NCBI GenBank assembly: GCA_016191335.1
Contig: JACPOW010000074.1
Location: forward strand, 1 to 38,763
Direction of reading: 5' to 3'
Origin: Elusimicrobiota bacterium
GTDB taxonomy: Bacteria; Elusimicrobiota; Elusimicrobia; UBA1565; UBA9628
DNA length: 38,763 nt
Each line of letters opens with the position of its first letter. Within the stretch, counting starts at the first letter, position 1. Shown in pieces: positions 227-5,936 of this stretch. The position numbers and the translations under genes are program-made. Below the pieces are notes generated by a model. The model ran no database searches and was not told the DNA's origin. It saw nothing but the letters and a program-made list of their open reading frames with translations.

Positions 227-1189
227 CTAGACGGAGACCTTCACGTCCCAGCACTCGTTGGCGTGCTTGAGGAGGTCGGTCTCGGTCTGGGCGCGGCGCA
301 CGAAGTCCTGGACTTCCTTGGACTTCCAGGCGGCGCCGACCTTGGGCCAGGCGGACTTGAGGCTCTCGGTCTTGAGGTCCGCGACGGCGAACGGCAAGGC
401 GTTCAAGAGCTTGGCGCGGCCGTTGGGGACGACGAGCACCATGCTTTGGGGGCTCTCGGCGCGGGTGACCATCTCCTGCTGTATGCCCCACGGGTAGATC
501 GCGAGCTTGGGACCTTTCAAGGCTGCGGCCGCGGCTTTGAGGCCCATCACGGCCTCTTTCCAGTCGTCTTCCGAACAGGCGAGGGTGTCCCACGCATAAG
601 CGGCGCGGCCGAGGCGCATCATTGGACCGGTGACGAAGGTCCGCACGCCTCGCGCGGCGGCTTGTTCATAGACCGATACCGCGTCCTTGACGTTTATCTT
701 CGTCGGTATAAAAACCAGCTCAGGTTCAAGCCCACGCGCCACAAGGCGGTCTATGGCGGCCCAGGCCGGCGCGTAGCCTGACCCCGGCCTGAGCTTCTCG
801 TGGACGGCCGCGGTGGCGCCGTCGATCGAGATCTGGACACACGCGATTTTGAGCTCTTTAAGCTTGTCGCAGGCGGCGTCGTTCAGGTCGAGGCCGTTCG
901 TCTCGATCTTGATCTCGACGCCCCCTTTCGTGAGCATCTCGAATATCTCGATGGCCCACGGCGAGCCCATCGGCTCCCCGCCGCCGAAGGCGACGTAGGC
1001 GATGCCGTTCTCGACGATCTGGCGGGTTAATGAAAGGGCCTGCTCGCGCGTCATCTCGTCGGGCCAGGCCTTGTCCGGCCCCGACTCCTCGCAGCAGTGC
1101 AGGCAGCGGCCCGTGCAGCGGTTGCTCAGCTGCCAGGCAAGAAAGAGAGGGGCGCCGTAGTCGCCCACGGACGCCCCTCTCCGGTCCAT
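227..1189 (-). CDS. Radical SAM protein, third paralogue of the RiPP-like cluster
   Basis: 320-residue radical SAM enzyme. The [4Fe-4S]/SAM motif is CTGRCLHC (C25, C29, C32, with an extra C33), followed by a GGGEP SAM-contact motif and the usual (beta/alpha)6 barrel. The C-terminal region keeps the outline of a SPASM/twitch domain (VPNGRAKLLNALPF, then AVADLKTESL) but lacks the cysteines that bind auxiliary clusters; even the single Cys kept in its two paralogues is Ala/Val here. The ATG overlaps the stop of the precursor peptide gene by one base (TGATG), so the two are translationally coupled. This arrangement makes it the most likely direct modifier of that peptide. The modification type is not predictable from sequence. 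Confidence 0.85.
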   Translation of the reverse strand: MDRRGASVGDYGAPLFLAWQLSNRCTGRCLHCCEESGPDKAWPDEMTREQALSLTRQIVENGIAYVAFGGGEPMGSPWAIEIFEMLTKGGVEIKIETNGLDLNDAACDKLKELKIACVQISIDGATAAVHEKLRPGSGYAPAWAAIDRLVARGLEPELVFIPTKINVKDAVSVYEQAAARGVRTFVTGPMMRLGRAAYAWDTLACSEDDWKEAVMGLKAAAAALKGPKLAIYPWGIQQEMVTRAESPQSMVLVVPNGRAKLLNALPFAVADLKTESLKSAWPKVGAAWKSKEVQDFVRRAQTETDLLKHANECWDVKVSV

Positions 1190-1308
1190 CAGGTGAAGCG
1201 GATGTAGGGCTGGGCCATCACGCGCTCGGAAACTTCCTCAAGAGAGGGCGTCTCCCAAGCGAGCTTCGGCTCGGCCTTGGCATCCGTCACGGTTTTCTGG
1301 TCGTTCAT
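1189..1308 (-). CDS. Candidate RiPP precursor peptide, 39 aa
   Basis: A 39-codon ORF, ATG at 1308, TGA at 1191-1189, wedged between two radical SAM genes. It has one of the strongest Shine-Dalgarno sites in the window (AGGAG, 4-5 nt before ATG). The N-terminal 17 residues are polar and charged (MNDQKTVTDAKAEPKLA). Then comes WETPSL, which fits the [Y/W]xxPxL element that RiPP leaders use to bind PqqD-like RRE domains; such an RRE protein is in the same operon. The tail EEVSERVMAQPYIRFT ends in an aromatic-rich PYIRFT. There is no cysteine. By position, size and leader motif it is a precursor peptide whose Tyr/Phe/Arg-rich C terminus would be the modified core. I do not recognise the family by name. 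The start is firm; the function is inferred. Confidence 0.8.
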   Translation of the reverse strand: MNDQKTVTDAKAEPKLAWETPSLEEVSERVMAQPYIRFT

Positions 1309-1325
1309 GTTACTCCTGTTCCCGG

Positions 1326-2285
1326 TCAGACCACGACCGGTATAGCTTCAGATTCGTGCAGCGCGACCCACTGGTTCGCCCGGGCCGAGGCGCCCGGGTC
1401 GGCGGCGAGGTCCGCCAGGGCGGTCCGCACGCGCGGATCGGCCCAGGCTTTCTTGTACGCCTCCCAGGATTCGAGGAAAGTCTGCGATTTGAGGTCGGCG
1501 CATGTAAAGGGCAGGGGTGCCGCGACCTTCACGCGCCCGTCGGGAAGTACCAATAATGTGCCGGAGGGCTGAAAAGCCCGGTGCGCCATCTCCTCGTCCA
1601 GGGAGAAGGGCTTGTAGCACAGCTCCATCTTGCCGGCGTACTCCCGCTCCTTGCGCTCCAGGACGCGCAGGAAGGCCGCGTAGTCGGCCTTGGAGGGCTC
1701 GAGCTTGTCCCAGAGCCTGGCGGCGGTGCCCAAGCGCATCAGCTGGCCGGTGTTGAAGCGGAAGGCGCCGAGCTTGGCGGCAAGATCGATCACCGCCTCG
1801 GCTTCGAAGATGTTCAATCGCGTCGGGGCGAAAGTGATCTCGAGAGGCAAGCCGGCGGCGACGACGGAACGGCACGCGGCCACGGCACGTTCGAGCACGC
1901 CGTTGACCCGCTGGCGTCCGTACACCGCCTGAGAGGCCCCGTCCAAGGAGATCTGCACCGACCGTATGCCGAGGCCCTTGAGGGTCGCGGGATCGAAGTT
2001 GTTGCCGTTCGTCTCGATCTTGAGAAGCACCCCGCCGTCGGACAAGGTCTTGCAGACCTCGGCGAAATGAGGCGCGAGGGTCGGCTCCCCGCCGACGATC
2101 ATCGCGTACGGCACGCCGGCGGCGACGATCTCCCCCGCCAGCTTCAACGCCTGCTCCCGCGTCAGCTCGCCCGGCAGCGCCTTGCCCGGGGCGGAGTCCG
2201 TGCAGCAATGCAGGCACGCCAGGTCGCAGTCCCGCGTGAGCTGCCAGGTGACCATGGTCGGCGACGAGAAGGCCTCGATCCTCAT
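1326..2285 (-). CDS. Radical SAM protein, second paralogue of the RiPP-like cluster
   Basis: 319-residue radical SAM protein. The cluster motif CDLACLHC places C20, C24 and C27 as iron-sulfur ligands, followed by VGGEP and the barrel. The C-terminal SPASM-like part (LPDGRVKVAAPLPFTCADLK) has one Cys and cannot hold a full auxiliary cluster. The start ATG at 2285 overlaps the stop of the upstream radical SAM/UbiA gene (ATGA). The precursor peptide starts 17 nt downstream of its stop. It is clearly homologous to both neighbouring radical SAM proteins along its whole length, so the three arose by duplication. It probably acts on the same peptide or on an intermediate. Longer frames on both strands across this region are shadows. 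Confidence 0.88.
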   Translation of the reverse strand: MRIEAFSSPTMVTWQLTRDCDLACLHCCTDSAPGKALPGELTREQALKLAGEIVAAGVPYAMIVGGEPTLAPHFAEVCKTLSDGGVLLKIETNGNNFDPATLKGLGIRSVQISLDGASQAVYGRQRVNGVLERAVAACRSVVAAGLPLEITFAPTRLNIFEAEAVIDLAAKLGAFRFNTGQLMRLGTAARLWDKLEPSKADYAAFLRVLERKEREYAGKMELCYKPFSLDEEMAHRAFQPSGTLLVLPDGRVKVAAPLPFTCADLKSQTFLESWEAYKKAWADPRVRTALADLAADPGASARANQWVALHESEAIPVVV

Positions 2286-3778
2286 CGGCCGAGCCCCATG
2301 AACACCGCGAACAGGGCCGTCGTGAGCGCGTAGCACTGCACGATGGAGCGGATGGCCGGCATGAACAGGCGGGGCGTGTCCCAGGTGTCGCGCCCGTGGC
2401 GCAAGGACAGGATCCACAGAGGCAGGCCCGCCAAGGCGGCGAGGATGGTCAGCTTGGGAAAGAGGCCGGCGAAGATGCCGGCGGGGATGATGAGCAGCCC
2501 CAGCGCGGAGAGCGCCAGGTACAGCACCCTTCCGTTCTTCCTTCCAAGGCGAACCACCAGATTCTTCTTTCCGACGAGACGGTCCTGATGAAAATCGGGG
2601 ATGTTGTTGACGGTGGCCAACGCCGTGATGAGCAAGCCGGGCACCAACGAGGCGAGAAGAGCGCCCCACGAGAAGCGATGCGTATGAAGGTGCAAAGACC
2701 CGAGCACCATCCACGGACCGTACGAGAGGCCGATGACGGTCTCGCCCAAGCCCCGGTACACCCAGCGGATCGGCGGGCCGACGTACCAGACGGCGGCTGC
2801 GCCGCCGAGAAGCGTGTAAAGCACGATGGGCCAACCCTCCTCCCACTGATGCAGGCGGGAGACGATGTTCGGGTCCTCGGCCAGGCGGTCGATGAACGCC
2901 GAGACGCGCGGGCTCTGCCACGCCTTCTGGAACTGGGCCCACACCTGTCCGAGCGTGTCGGTCTTCAGGTCCCCGCAGGTGAACGGGAGCGCGTTGATGA
3001 GCTTGACCTTGCCGTTGGGCAGGATGATGAACAGCGCCGCCGGGTTGAGCAGGCGGTAGCGCAGCTCGTCCAATAATCCCATCTCGTGGTAGTACACGCG
3101 CATCTTGCCCTTGTACTGGTCGGTCTTGGCCTTGAGCGTGGCGAAGAACTCGGGGTAGTCCGCCTCGTCGGGGGCGGTGATGCCCCAGGTGCGCACGGCG
3201 TTGCCGGTGAACATCAGCTTGCCGGTGTAGAACGAGTAGGCGCCGATCTCGTGGGCGAGGTCGACGGCCGCGCCGATCTCCTTGATGTTGAAGCGCGCCG
3301 GGACGAAGTTGATCTCGATCGGGATGCCGGCCTCGCGCAGGTTCTTGATCCCGTTCAGAGCTTCCTCGAAACGCCCGTGGACGCGCATCTTGTTGAAGGA
3401 CGCGTTGCTGGCGCCGTCGAGGGAGACCTGCACCGCCTTGATGCCCAAGTCCTTGAGCTTCTTGCAGTTCTCCTTCGTCAGATAATGGCCGTTGGTCTCG
3501 ATCTTGAGGCCGACGCCGCCCTTGGTGATGCGCTCCACCATGCCGAAGAAGTCGGGGCGGACCATGGGCTCGCCGCCGGAGAAGGAGACGTAGGGCACCT
3601 CGGATTTGACCAGCTGGTCGATGATGCCGTAGGCCTGCTCGGTGGTCAGCTCGTCCTTGAACGCCTTGCCCGGGCCGCTCTCCTCGATGCAGTGGAGGCA
3701 CGCGAGGTTGCACTCGTTGGTGATCTGCCAGGCGACGTACAGGGGCGCGCCGAGGTCCGACGTCTCTTTGTCTTCCAT
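2282..3778 (-). CDS. Radical SAM protein fused to C-terminal half of a UbiA/MenA-type prenyltransferase
   Basis: 498 residues in one frame. Residues 1 to about 310 form a radical SAM enzyme (CNLACLHC with C23, C27, C30; SGGEP; SPASM-like LPNGKVKLINALPFTCGDLK with one Cys). From about 319 the chain becomes a membrane domain resembling the second half of MenA/UbiA prenyltransferases: YRGLGE, then YGPWMVLGS, then NNIPDFHQD with D395 and D399 as the second Mg-diphosphate motif, then GKKNLVVRLG and three to four hydrophobic segments. The first UbiA half, with its NxxxDxxxD motif, is absent and not found elsewhere in the window. The last residues expected of the radical SAM part (compare the paralogue after its NQW) are also missing. 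This looks like an in-frame deletion fusion, unless the half-domain serves only as a membrane anchor. The ATG lies 1 nt after the PqqD-like stop. Confidence 0.82.
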   Translation of the reverse strand: MEDKETSDLGAPLYVAWQITNECNLACLHCIEESGPGKAFKDELTTEQAYGIIDQLVKSEVPYVSFSGGEPMVRPDFFGMVERITKGGVGLKIETNGHYLTKENCKKLKDLGIKAVQVSLDGASNASFNKMRVHGRFEEALNGIKNLREAGIPIEINFVPARFNIKEIGAAVDLAHEIGAYSFYTGKLMFTGNAVRTWGITAPDEADYPEFFATLKAKTDQYKGKMRVYYHEMGLLDELRYRLLNPAALFIILPNGKVKLINALPFTCGDLKTDTLGQVWAQFQKAWQSPRVSAFIDRLAEDPNIVSRLHQWEEGWPIVLYTLLGGAAAVWYVGPPIRWVYRGLGETVIGLSYGPWMVLGSLHLHTHRFSWGALLASLVPGLLITALATVNNIPDFHQDRLVGKKNLVVRLGRKNGRVLYLALSALGLLIIPAGIFAGLFPKLTILAALAGLPLWILSLRHGRDTWDTPRLFMPAIRSIVQCYALTTALFAVFMGLGR

Positions 3779-3779
3779 G

Positions 3780-4220
3780 TTATTCGACGATGAGTCCCTT
3801 GTCCTTGAGCTGCTTCAAGAACGATTCGGCCTCGACGGCCATCTTGCCGGTCGGGTCCTCGAACTTCTCCTTGAGCTTGGCGACGAGGTTCCCGGACTCC
3901 GCGCCCGCGATGACCTCGCGCACGACCGCCGCGCCGGTGGGGCTCAGCGTGTACACCTTCTCGGAGCGCGTCTCGAACAGCACCGCGCCGAACTTCTCTT
4001 CCCGGAACTTCACGAATGGAGCAAGCTTCATGATTCCCTCTCTGTGGGCGACGAGGCAGGAGTTGGCGTCCCAGACCTCGCGCGCCGCGATCTCTTCCAT
4101 CTCACGGCGCACCTTGCGCCGGCTCGCCTCGTCGGCCGGGTCGGCTTGCGCCGCCTCCGTCTCCGAGACGACGAAGTCCCCGCTCTTCCACGCCTTGCGC
4201 AGCAGGGCTTCGTACGACAT
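3780..4220 (-). CDS. PqqD-family RRE protein (peptide-recognition partner)
   Basis: 146 residues. The C-terminal ~80 residues are a PqqD/MftB-like RiPP recognition element: KLAPFVKFREEKFGAVLF, then VYTLSPTGAAVVREVI, then a helix ending FLKQLKDKGLIVE. The N-terminal ~60 residues are a charged helical extension not usual in free-standing PqqD. RRE proteins bind the leader of a precursor peptide and present it to radical SAM enzymes, which fits the peptide at 1189-1308. The ATG at 4220 directly abuts the stop of the polyprenyl synthase gene, with AGGGAG as ribosome site inside that gene. The closest analogue I can name is MftB of the mycofactocin system, because of the shared FGALLY/FGAVLF pattern. 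Confidence 0.85.
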   Translation of the reverse strand: MSYEALLRKAWKSGDFVVSETEAAQADPADEASRRKVRREMEEIAAREVWDANSCLVAHREGIMKLAPFVKFREEKFGAVLFETRSEKVYTLSPTGAAVVREVIAGAESGNLVAKLKEKFEDPTGKMAVEAESFLKQLKDKGLIVE

Positions 4221-5168
4221 CTAGAACTCCCTCTTGGCCATGACTTCCACGAAGAAGGCGAGCTCGGTCGCCTCCGCCTTGCACGGCAGCTTCTTGATCA
4301 TGGCGAGCATCGAATCGGTTATTTCCCGGCCTTTCTCGCGCGTCTTCTGGATATGGCCGCGGTCCTTCAGGAGCCTGGCGATCTTCGTCGCGTCGGGCTT
4401 CGGCTCGTTCCACAGGGCCAGGAAGTCCTCGCGCGTGGCCGAGTCGTGGATCGCGTAGATGCAGGGCAAGGTCAGCTTGCGGTTGGCCAGGTCCTGGCCC
4501 TCGTCCTTGCCGGAGACGCGCTCGGTGAGCGTGTAATCGTGGATGTCGTCCACGATCTGAAGGAGGATGCCGGCCGCGCAGGCCAGGCGGGGCGGGTCGC
4601 TTTGCTCGTGCGGGAAAGGGGACAGCTCGGACAGGACCGCGCCGGCCCACTCGAACAGGGCGCCGGTCTTGCGGGAGGCGACGCCCATGTAGGCGTCCAC
4701 GCTCACCTCGAGCGACCCTTTCAGGAACTCTTCCTGAAGATCGCCGACCGTCATCTCGCGCACGGTCGTGACCAGGAGCTTGGGGGCGTTCGGGGAGATG
4801 TCGATGGCCTCTTCCAGGCCCTGGGCGAAGGCCAGGTCACCCAGGAGCAGGCCGATGGTGGTGCCGAAGATCTTGTTGGGGGTCGGGTGGCCGCGGCGCA
4901 GCTCGGCCTCGTCCACGCAGTCGTCATGGAGGAGGCTGGCGTTGTGGACGAGCTCCATGGCCCGGGCCACGCCCTCGGCCTTCTCCAGATCGACGCCCAG
5001 GGCCCCGGCCATGAGCAAAGCGAAGCGGGAGCGCAGCATCTTCCCCGGCCGGGCGATGTGGCTGGCCAGCTCCTGGCCCACCCGGCCCTCGATCCGGCGG
5101 GCCCGGCTCTCGAGGCCGGCCCGGACCCGGGTCAACGAATCTTCCACCTTCAAAAGGGAAATCGGCAT
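4221..5168 (-). CDS. Polyprenyl diphosphate synthase (trans-isoprenyl diphosphate synthase family)
   Basis: 315 residues, normal for the family. Both Asp-rich motifs are intact: first DDCVDEAELRRG (DDxxDx4RRG), second DDIHD. It would condense IPP onto an allylic diphosphate to make a linear prenyl chain; chain length cannot be read reliably by eye. It is the first gene of the operon that continues with the PqqD-like protein and the radical SAM proteins, with no gap to the next ORF. A prenyl supplier plus a UbiA remnant beside peptide-modifying enzymes suggests a prenylated product or a lipid-quinone-linked role. A housekeeping role in quinone or undecaprenyl-precursor supply is the alternative. 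Confidence 0.9.
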   Translation of the reverse strand: MPISLLKVEDSLTRVRAGLESRARRIEGRVGQELASHIARPGKMLRSRFALLMAGALGVDLEKAEGVARAMELVHNASLLHDDCVDEAELRRGHPTPNKIFGTTIGLLLGDLAFAQGLEEAIDISPNAPKLLVTTVREMTVGDLQEEFLKGSLEVSVDAYMGVASRKTGALFEWAGAVLSELSPFPHEQSDPPRLACAAGILLQIVDDIHDYTLTERVSGKDEGQDLANRKLTLPCIYAIHDSATREDFLALWNEPKPDATKIARLLKDRGHIQKTREKGREITDSMLAMIKKLPCKAEATELAFFVEVMAKREF

Positions 5169-5237: not shown

Positions 5238-5936
5238 ATGCATTCAGAGCGGATATTGGTGGTCGAGGACGACGCGGGCTGGATCCAGCTGCTCCAGCTG
5301 TGGTTCCCGGCCGCGGGCTACTCGTCCGTGGAATACGCGGTGACCGGGGCCCAGGCCCTGGAGGCCGCGGTGCAGCGCAAGCCGGACTGCGTCCTCCTCG
5401 ACTTCGGCCTGCCCGACCAGAACGGCAGCGAGGTCTGCGCCAAGCTGCGCGCCATCCCCGCCCTCGCCCGCGTCCCGGTCGTGATGTTCACCGCCCACGG
5501 CCGGGAGAAGGTGCTCGGCCTCGAGAACGGGGCGGACTACTTCGTCGGCAAGTCCGACAGCTCGCGCGAGTTGATGGCGACCCTCGGCGCGCTGTTCAAG
5601 CGCGCGAAGCAGGAGCCGGGCGTTCTCCAGCACGGCGACCTGTCCCTGCACAGAGAGGACCGCCGCGTGTTCTGGAAGGACGCGCCCGTCGCCGACCTGA
5701 CGCCGAAGGCTTTCGCCCTGTTCCACATCCTCGTGGAGCGCGGCCCCCAGCCCGTCTCGCGCGAGGATCTCTACCGGATGGTCGAGGGCGTCGAGAACCC
5801 GGGATTGTCGCGCGCGCTGGACGTGATGCTCAACCGGCTGAAGAAATCGCTGCCCAAGGAGCTCGCCGAAAGGATCGTTAATGTGAAGAATTTCGGCTAT
5901 TGCTTCCTTGAGGATCGGCGAGTAACACGGCCGTAA
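5238..5936 (+). CDS. Orphan OmpR/PhoB-family response regulator
   Basis: 232 residues. The receiver domain (about 1-120) has the acidic pair in VVEDD (10-11), phospho-acceptor D55 in LLDFGLPD, T85 in FTAHG and K105 in VGKSDS. The C-terminal winged helix (about 135-228) has the OmpR-type order: LTPKAFALFHIL, then VSREDLY, then ALDVMLNRLKKSL, and the wing VNVKNFGYCF. No histidine kinase is in the window. It is transcribed divergently from the radical SAM operon and sits just upstream of the c-di-GMP riboswitch and flgO-like operon, so either could be a target. Three GTAAC direct repeats overlap its 3' end. The start is the ATG 7 nt after the -10 box. Confidence 0.92.
   Translation: MHSERILVVEDDAGWIQLLQLWFPAAGYSSVEYAVTGAQALEAAVQRKPDCVLLDFGLPDQNGSEVCAKLRAIPALARVPVVMFTAHGREKVLGLENGADYFVGKSDSSRELMATLGALFKRAKQEPGVLQHGDLSLHREDRRVFWKDAPVADLTPKAFALFHILVERGPQPVSREDLYRMVEGVENPGLSRALDVMLNRLKKSLPKELAERIVNVKNFGYCFLEDRRVTRP

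Follow-up and report, generated by a model that had tools for sequence, protein, structure and literature searches.

A densely packed operon with peptide and prenyl-lipid genes

The gene cluster described here lies on contig JACPOW010000074.1 of an Elusimicrobiota bacterium (assembly GCA_016191335.1), whose genome of 3.66 Mb is 93.9% complete; the 38,763-nucleotide stretch that was analyzed is called the window. Six open reading frames (ORFs) between 227 and 5168, all on the minus strand and densely packed, make up the cluster. Pfam matches and coordinates agree with an initial annotation, made from the letters of the window, that placed in one tight operon a polyprenyl synthase, a PqqD-like recognition element (RRE) for ribosomally synthesized and post-translationally modified peptides (RiPPs), three radical S-adenosylmethionine (rSAM) proteins and a 39-residue peptide. 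The features are as follows.

4221..5168, minus strand: all-trans polyprenyl diphosphate synthase, 315 aa (PF00348, polyprenyl_synt, 1.4e-42; both Asp-rich motifs)
3780..4220, minus strand: PqqD-like RRE protein, 146 aa (PF05402, PqqD, 1.3e-9; the RRE is the C-terminal ~80 residues)
3778-2282, minus strand: 498-aa chimera ORF, rSAM1 plus UbiA remnant (Pfam matches)
2837..3778, minus strand: rSAM1 proper, 314 residues of the chimera (PF04055, Radical_SAM, 1.7e-26)
2282..2836, minus strand: 3' remnant of a MenA-like UbiA prenyltransferase, joined to rSAM1 in the same frame (PF01040 profile positions 89-236 of 250)
1326..2285, minus strand: rSAM2, 319 aa (PF04055, 5.2e-16; own clade, support 100/97)
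1313..1317, minus strand: Shine-Dalgarno sequence AGGAG of the peptide gene (sequence)
1189..1308, minus strand: precursor peptide, 39 aa (conserved ORF between rSAM2 and rSAM3)
1240..1257, minus strand: leader element WETPSL (WxxPx[LMI]), probable RRE-binding motif (pattern kept in 47 of 48 contexts)
1192..1221, minus strand: invariant C-terminal core VMAQPYIRFT (identical in 48 of 48 distinct contexts)
227..1189, minus strand: rSAM3, 320 aa (PF04055, 6.6e-23; own clade, support 100/95)

The strong ribosome site first assigned to the peptide gene corresponds to the AGGAG, which lies four bases before the ATG, and the peptide carries WETPSL and ends in a Cys-free QPYIRFT as described. The three proteins annotated as rSAM enzymes all match Radical_SAM, but the 498-residue one proved to be a chimera with a UbiA tail.

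The precursor peptide and its recognition element

Genome contigs were scanned with the 498-residue chimera, which gave 40 loci, and 18 further regions were fetched besides. Of the 40, 33 have the peptide between rSAM2 and rSAM3. Five of the remaining seven reach a contig edge first, and two hold a distant archaeal rSAM only. Sixteen of the 18 further regions also hold the peptide (one repeats locus L056), the two others being L113, whose contig starts too late, and L128, where its place was wrongly guessed. The short ORF is thus conserved at the same place in relatives, a point on which the initial annotation had staked its case, and chance is excluded as the source of this conservation.

Across 59 loci in 48 distinct contexts, the window included, the tail VMAQPYIRFT is identical in 31 DNA spellings (stop codon counted), and no near-miss tail with 6 to 9 of the 10 letters was found among the loci gathered. 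The leader varies except for WxxPx[LMI], with a Trp-to-Leu change in L060 as the sole exception. It is the tail, with its Tyr and Phe, that is best conserved in the peptide, and not the leader. An identical tail with varying codons is as expected of a cofactor precursor, and the mycofactocin report applies the same invariance logic to that system (PMC3023750).

A structure model of the RRE protein (pLDDT 80.7) matched best, among PDB entries, the lasso peptide B1-leader complexes 6jx3 and 5v1u/5v1v, followed by PqqD (5sxy), which fits the WxxPxL element of the peptide. In the nine loci from Pseudomonadota described below, the RRE matches span about 95 residues at most, and the N-terminal part is unmatched there. 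With an RRE-fold protein, recognized by both PF05402 and the fold match, adjoining the precursor, the locus has the arrangement of a RiPP-type cluster with an RRE, as had been proposed.

Three lineages of radical SAM enzymes

The rSAM proteins form three lineages in a tree, with rSAM2 and rSAM3 each on one branch and rSAM1 likewise, apart from three rows from family f8. These three (L111-L113) carry the label rSAM1 and sit next to rSAM3, on a long branch. All 34 rSAM1 rows have the CxxxCxxC motif, as do nearly all of those for rSAM2 and rSAM3. The auxiliary Fe-S cysteine set is gone, and assignment as SPASM enzymes was rejected since the required cysteines are missing. The C-x2-C-x5-C-x3-C motif was not found C-terminal to the rSAM domain, where rSAM1 has one invariant extra Cys and the rSAM2 and rSAM3 alignments have no conserved Cys set. 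As separate irregularities, the start of rSAM3 in L069 (10978-13544) is split by about 1.5 kb of extra DNA, and the rSAM2 and rSAM3 matches in L036 (CP096137, 9868-11912) come in overlapping pieces in differing frames, perhaps from sequencing indels.

None of the 25 best NCBIfam models listed for each rSAM reached its curated cut-off, in agreement with the earlier view that the cluster matches no named class. The mycofactocin maturase model TIGR03962 (cut-off 265 bits), which is best for rSAM2 and rSAM3 and third best for rSAM1, scored 132.5, 96.5 and 93.2 bits against the window rSAMs, and PqqE (cut-off 381 bits) scored 92, 63 and 40 bits. The top models for rSAM1 were heme b synthase AhbD (140 bits) and NirJ2 (135 bits). 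These two matches would suit a tetrapyrrole-modifying pathway, in which the UbiA protein might prenylate heme as other UbiA enzymes do, and the genes beside L113 that resemble heme and cytochrome c genes (named by eye) would also suit it. Such a pathway is very improbable, given that the AhbD and NirJ2 scores are far under their cut-offs (both 500 bits), that it leaves no place for an RRE and an invariant peptide, and that the window genome has separate CtaB-type genes for heme O synthase.

Distribution of the cluster

The gene order is conserved as (polyprenyl synthase)-RRE-rSAM1-MenA-like-rSAM2-peptide-rSAM3, and the hosts are one Elusimicrobiota order, four genomes elsewhere in its class and a few Pseudomonadota. 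Genomes were counted as cluster-positive at an rSAM match with E up to 1e-60, which in G183, G205 and G206 may reflect an rSAM1 paralog; on this basis the cluster is present in 46 of the 56 genomes of the order and in 50 of 340 across the phylum. Class-level relatives among the further regions have an rSAM1 only 42-50% identical. The polyprenyl synthase accompanies 28 of the 29 Elusimicrobiota loci of the contig scan, the exception (L052) beginning inside rSAM1. The motifs HDDC.D and DDIhD are kept in 27 aligned synthase relatives, and family and motifs suggest an enzyme of the long-chain type.

The whole set minus the polyprenyl synthase was found in nine Pseudomonadota loci, from records labelled Acidocella (two), Acidiphilium, Betaproteobacteria GR16-43, Burkholderiales, Kiloniellales, Azospirillaceae, Gammaproteobacteria and a Bordetella parapertussis bin; the last label (L059) is doubtful. 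Pseudomonadota rows stand beside L056-L058 in the trees of rSAM1 and rSAM2, and in that of rSAM3 they are sister to all Elusimicrobiota rows except L114. Transfer from Elusimicrobiota into Pseudomonadota is likely, but its direction is not certain because the placement of rSAM3 differs from that of the other two. A plasmid-borne system was considered and rejected, as a tblastn search of 72,556 plasmid records with the rSAM1 of L063 yielded nothing at E 1e-30. A wide spread in Pseudomonadota was likewise rejected, the one positive among 398 sampled genomes being the center itself.

In the family f8 loci L111-L113 (G111-G113) only the RRE, an rSAM1-like protein and UbiA were seen, and in L111 and L112 the peptide precedes them on the upstream side; neighboring genes named by eye resemble CcdA (L112) and ResB, CcsA and HemA (L113). 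When 14 loci were compared, no gene outside the core recurred in more than two, wrong-frame ORFs over the core excepted; the ORF caller was simple, gave wrong frames in places and could have missed a short gene. A general carrier would be expected to show such a lack of recurring genes outside the core. Just upstream of the operon in the window, a divergent ORF (5238-5936) resembles an OmpR-type response regulator, named by eye.

A MenA-like prenyltransferase embedded between the radical SAM genes

Residues 316-465 of the chimera match UbiA (PF01040, 1.3e-15), the remnant comprising ~184 C-terminal residues, and every UbiA-type model on the chimera's list of the 25 best is a MenA model. In the three closest genomes rSAM1 is a stand-alone gene 94-99% identical to that of the window, and in G196, of the same genus (rSAM1 99% identical), rSAM1 and a complete UbiA gene are separate and overlap by a few bases. 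Compared with G196 and L034, 374 bases are missing from the window at the join (window 2830-2845), flanked by the near-repeats GTGGGAGG and GTGGGAAGG; either a real deletion or a mis-assembly has truncated the prenyltransferase. Reading the 498-residue protein as a new two-domain architecture was rejected, since relatives hold two genes and the window shows the deletion.

Of 35 extracted UbiA relatives, 32 were nearly full-length and entered the alignment; every one of these has both Asp motifs, FNEYxD..G.DRVF and N..PD..QDRLVGK. The two Asp motifs of the UbiA family are its metal-diphosphate motifs. Together with the UbiA fold they place the relatives in the superfamily. For the UbiA protein of L034 the best models are again MenA, and neither equivalog cut-off is reached (NF004751, 107.9 bits against 264; TIGR00751, 72.8 against 102.15). 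By sequence the closest solved chain is UBIAD1 (E 1e-4), the animal menaquinone-4 synthase, and UBIAD1 is also the best fold match (4e-6) of the structure model of the L034 protein (pLDDT 84.9). Elsewhere in Elusimicrobiota, UbiA-family genes were seen in side-by-side pairs (G185:C27:67830-69504 and G214:C18:643-2117).

These features bear on two alternatives. One is a soluble cofactor resembling pyrroloquinoline quinone (PQQ) or mycofactocin, in which case the synthase and the MenA-like enzyme would make some other prenyl lipid and have only the operon in common with it. This would suit the ranking of the mycofactocin maturase model among the rSAM matches. It does not suit the position of UbiA, which lies between rSAM1 and rSAM2 in every examined locus spanning them, the synthase-less Pseudomonadota loci included, and which in L111-L113 stays beside the RRE and an rSAM although no other rSAM was found there. 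No cofactor-dependent dehydrogenase recurred in the 14 compared loci either, and we consider this alternative quite unlikely. A prenylated RiPP natural product (a signal, an antibiotic or a membrane-anchored lipopeptide), with the rSAMs cross-linking or epimerizing the tail and UbiA lipidating it, is also unlikely. The combination of RRE, rSAM and precursor is typical of RiPPs, RiPP prenylation is known, though by other enzyme families, and the Tyr-Ile-Arg of the tail resembles three-residue cyclophane motifs. However, Elusimicrobiota share one unchanging tail with Pseudomonadota whose records are labelled alpha, beta and gamma, the 14 compared loci have no recurrent neighbor for transport, immunity or peptide cleavage, the UbiA is nearest to quinone-type MenA models, and presence in 46 of 56 genomes of one order is more like core metabolism.

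Quinone context of the host genomes

The known menaquinone markers that were searched are absent from the order. None of its 56 genomes has the MqnA/MqnD family, and none has MenD over the cut-off; weaker MenD matches in 34 are presumed to be other thiamine diphosphate enzymes. Across the phylum a strong PF02621 match (MqnA/MqnD; E below 1e-30) occurs in 29 of 334 genomes, with no overlap with the cluster genomes. Of the respiratory genes, the NuoH family is present in all 56 genomes, 55 of them below 1e-70, and the sole match in G221 (1.4e-34) is at the level of weaker, hydrogenase-like matches elsewhere. Strong cytochrome bd subunit I matches (E below 1e-60) occur in 16 of the 56, of which 13 are cluster-positive. 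A Nuo operon was found in the window genome together with two heme-copper oxidase (COX1) genes.

The UbiA proteins of the window genome number three, two of them CtaB (258 and 238 bits; cut-off 210) and the third the cluster remnant. Over the Pfam cut-off, 35 of the 46 cluster genomes of the order have only CtaB-like UbiA proteins and the cluster's own. CtaB-like here means a TIGR01473 match with E below 1e-39 at the same place, and this tally, like the corresponding one for cluster-less genomes given below, was matched by hand. Where no other quinone route can be seen, as judged for ubiquinone from UbiA and UbiE, the quinone pool is best attributed, as a candidate, to the cluster product. In each of the nine Pseudomonadota genomes there are other strong UbiA matches (best E 1e-63 to 1e-68), which presumably belong to ubiquinone and heme O synthesis.

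Neither a MenA-like enzyme nor missing menaquinone markers by themselves require the ring to come from the peptide. The peptide could instead be a carrier or leader only, with the rSAMs converting a free aromatic metabolite into an unusual menaquinone-like quinone. The conservation of the Tyr/Phe tail rather than the leader argues against this, and we judge it improbable.

A proposed route to a peptide-derived prenylated redox lipid

The initial annotation had inferred a new RiPP class. The RiPP-type gene set stands, but four features absent from that annotation, namely the MenA-like prenyltransferase, the invariance of the ten-residue tail, the cluster's occurrence in Pseudomonadota and the lack of menaquinone markers in the order, shift the reading. 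A precursor, an RRE, three rSAMs, a MenA-like enzyme and, in most Elusimicrobiota loci, a chain synthase are explained most simply by a prenylated aromatic made from the tail. We therefore favor, with moderate confidence, a cluster that makes a peptide-derived, polyprenylated aromatic membrane redox lipid, probably a respiratory quinone.

In the route that we propose, the polyprenyl synthase would supply a long isoprenoid diphosphate, as its family and motifs suggest. The RRE, judging from its fold and the leader motif, would grip WxxPxL and offer the peptide to the three paralogous rSAMs, which would alter VMAQPYIRFT, most likely by converting its Tyr ring to an aromatic head that is hydroxylated or ready for quinone formation, or by releasing it. 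The conserved tail looks like the modified part, as first suggested, although the modification itself remains inferred. The MenA-like UbiA would then attach the polyprenyl chain to the ring, as MenA does with dihydroxynaphthoate, and housekeeping peptidases may trim the product, no conserved peptidase gene having been seen. In Elusimicrobiota without known quinone markers, the product would link complex I to the oxidases as the quinone pool, and in Pseudomonadota it might be an additional carrier beside the presumed ubiquinone.

Several observations weigh against this proposal. Both the chemistry and the product are predictions. None of the cluster's enzymes is a known hydroxylase, and no hydroxylase, methyltransferase or peptidase was seen recurring beside the cluster in the 14 compared loci; nor does any genome of the order (0/56) have UbiE/MenG over the cut-off. 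The prenyltransferase copy of the window is incomplete, lacking its first third and with it the first Asp motif, and the Elusimicrobiota loci L111, L112, L116 and L117 have room for a polyprenyl synthase where none was seen. A further non-CtaB UbiA is present in 11 of the 46 cluster genomes of the order, and G183, cluster-positive by its rSAM match, has no UbiA match at all.

Ten of the 56 genomes lack the cluster (rSAM1 E above 1e-60) and keep NuoH; a strong cytochrome bd match occurs in three of these ten, and in eight no UbiA other than CtaB-like ones exceeds the cut-off. Complex I alone is therefore no proof of a need for the cluster product, and in the cluster-less genomes either the quinone has been lost or is scavenged, or complex I is weaker evidence than it appears. 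The exclusion between cluster and menaquinone signal has a hypergeometric P of about 0.007, which ignores phylogeny and was computed from 334, 50 and 29 although the cluster count comes from 340 genomes, and it follows family lines. Within family f8, some g45 genomes hold one of the two signals and genera g39 and g40 the other. Finally, G177 combines the cluster with a weak, partial PF02621 match above the cut-off.

Comparison with known systems

The peptide side of the cluster appears to work like PQQ or mycofactocin assembly and its lipid side like MenA, and by the tests made it is a member of none of these. Like PQQ biosynthesis (PqqA-E), the proposed route leads from a peptide through a PqqD-type RRE and rSAM chemistry to a quinone, but no PqqB or PqqC was found in the operon, to which that search was limited, the rSAMs score below the PqqE cut-off, and the product is apparently prenylated. 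Mycofactocin (MftA-MftF) offers the parallel of a redox carrier conserved across phyla, and has MftD-F where the cluster has a prenyl synthase and a MenA-like enzyme. The cluster tail, VMAQPYIRFT, also differs from the end of MftA, and the three rSAMs are far below the MftC cut-off and lack the extra Fe-S cysteine motif. The report on that system gives an invariant CGVY at the end of MftA and a C-x2-C-x5-C-x3-C motif C-terminal to the rSAM domain (PMC3023750).

The likeness to the MenA step of menaquinone synthesis lies in the pairing of a UbiA-family enzyme with a polyprenyl diphosphate synthase. However, the tested markers (MqnA/MqnD, and MenD over the cut-off) are absent from the order, and the UbiA is below the MenA cut-offs and embedded in a RiPP cluster. 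With lasso peptide systems the cluster shares the B1-type RRE fold and the [Y/W]xxPxL leader element, and its operon has no lasso cyclase or peptidase. No description of the cluster was found in the literature searched, which left aside bioRxiv and most subscription journals.

Small metabolites are the starting material of the major respiratory quinones, and the peptide-derived redox cofactors PQQ and mycofactocin are, to our knowledge, not prenyl quinones of the membrane pool. The cluster joins the logic of peptide-derived cofactors with that of membrane quinones. More tentatively, and with rather less than even confidence, it may encode the first ribosomally encoded respiratory lipoquinone, with a head cut from VMAQPYIRFT and prenylated by a MenA-like enzyme, standing in for menaquinone in a large Elusimicrobiota branch and probably passed from there to Pseudomonadota. 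A 2026 survey of 26,264 genomes describes many lineages as having no quinone pathway and suggests that there may be further quinones to discover (PMC13386864), and the cluster offers a concrete gene set for that suggestion. If true, a peptide-derived respiratory quinone would be categorically new.

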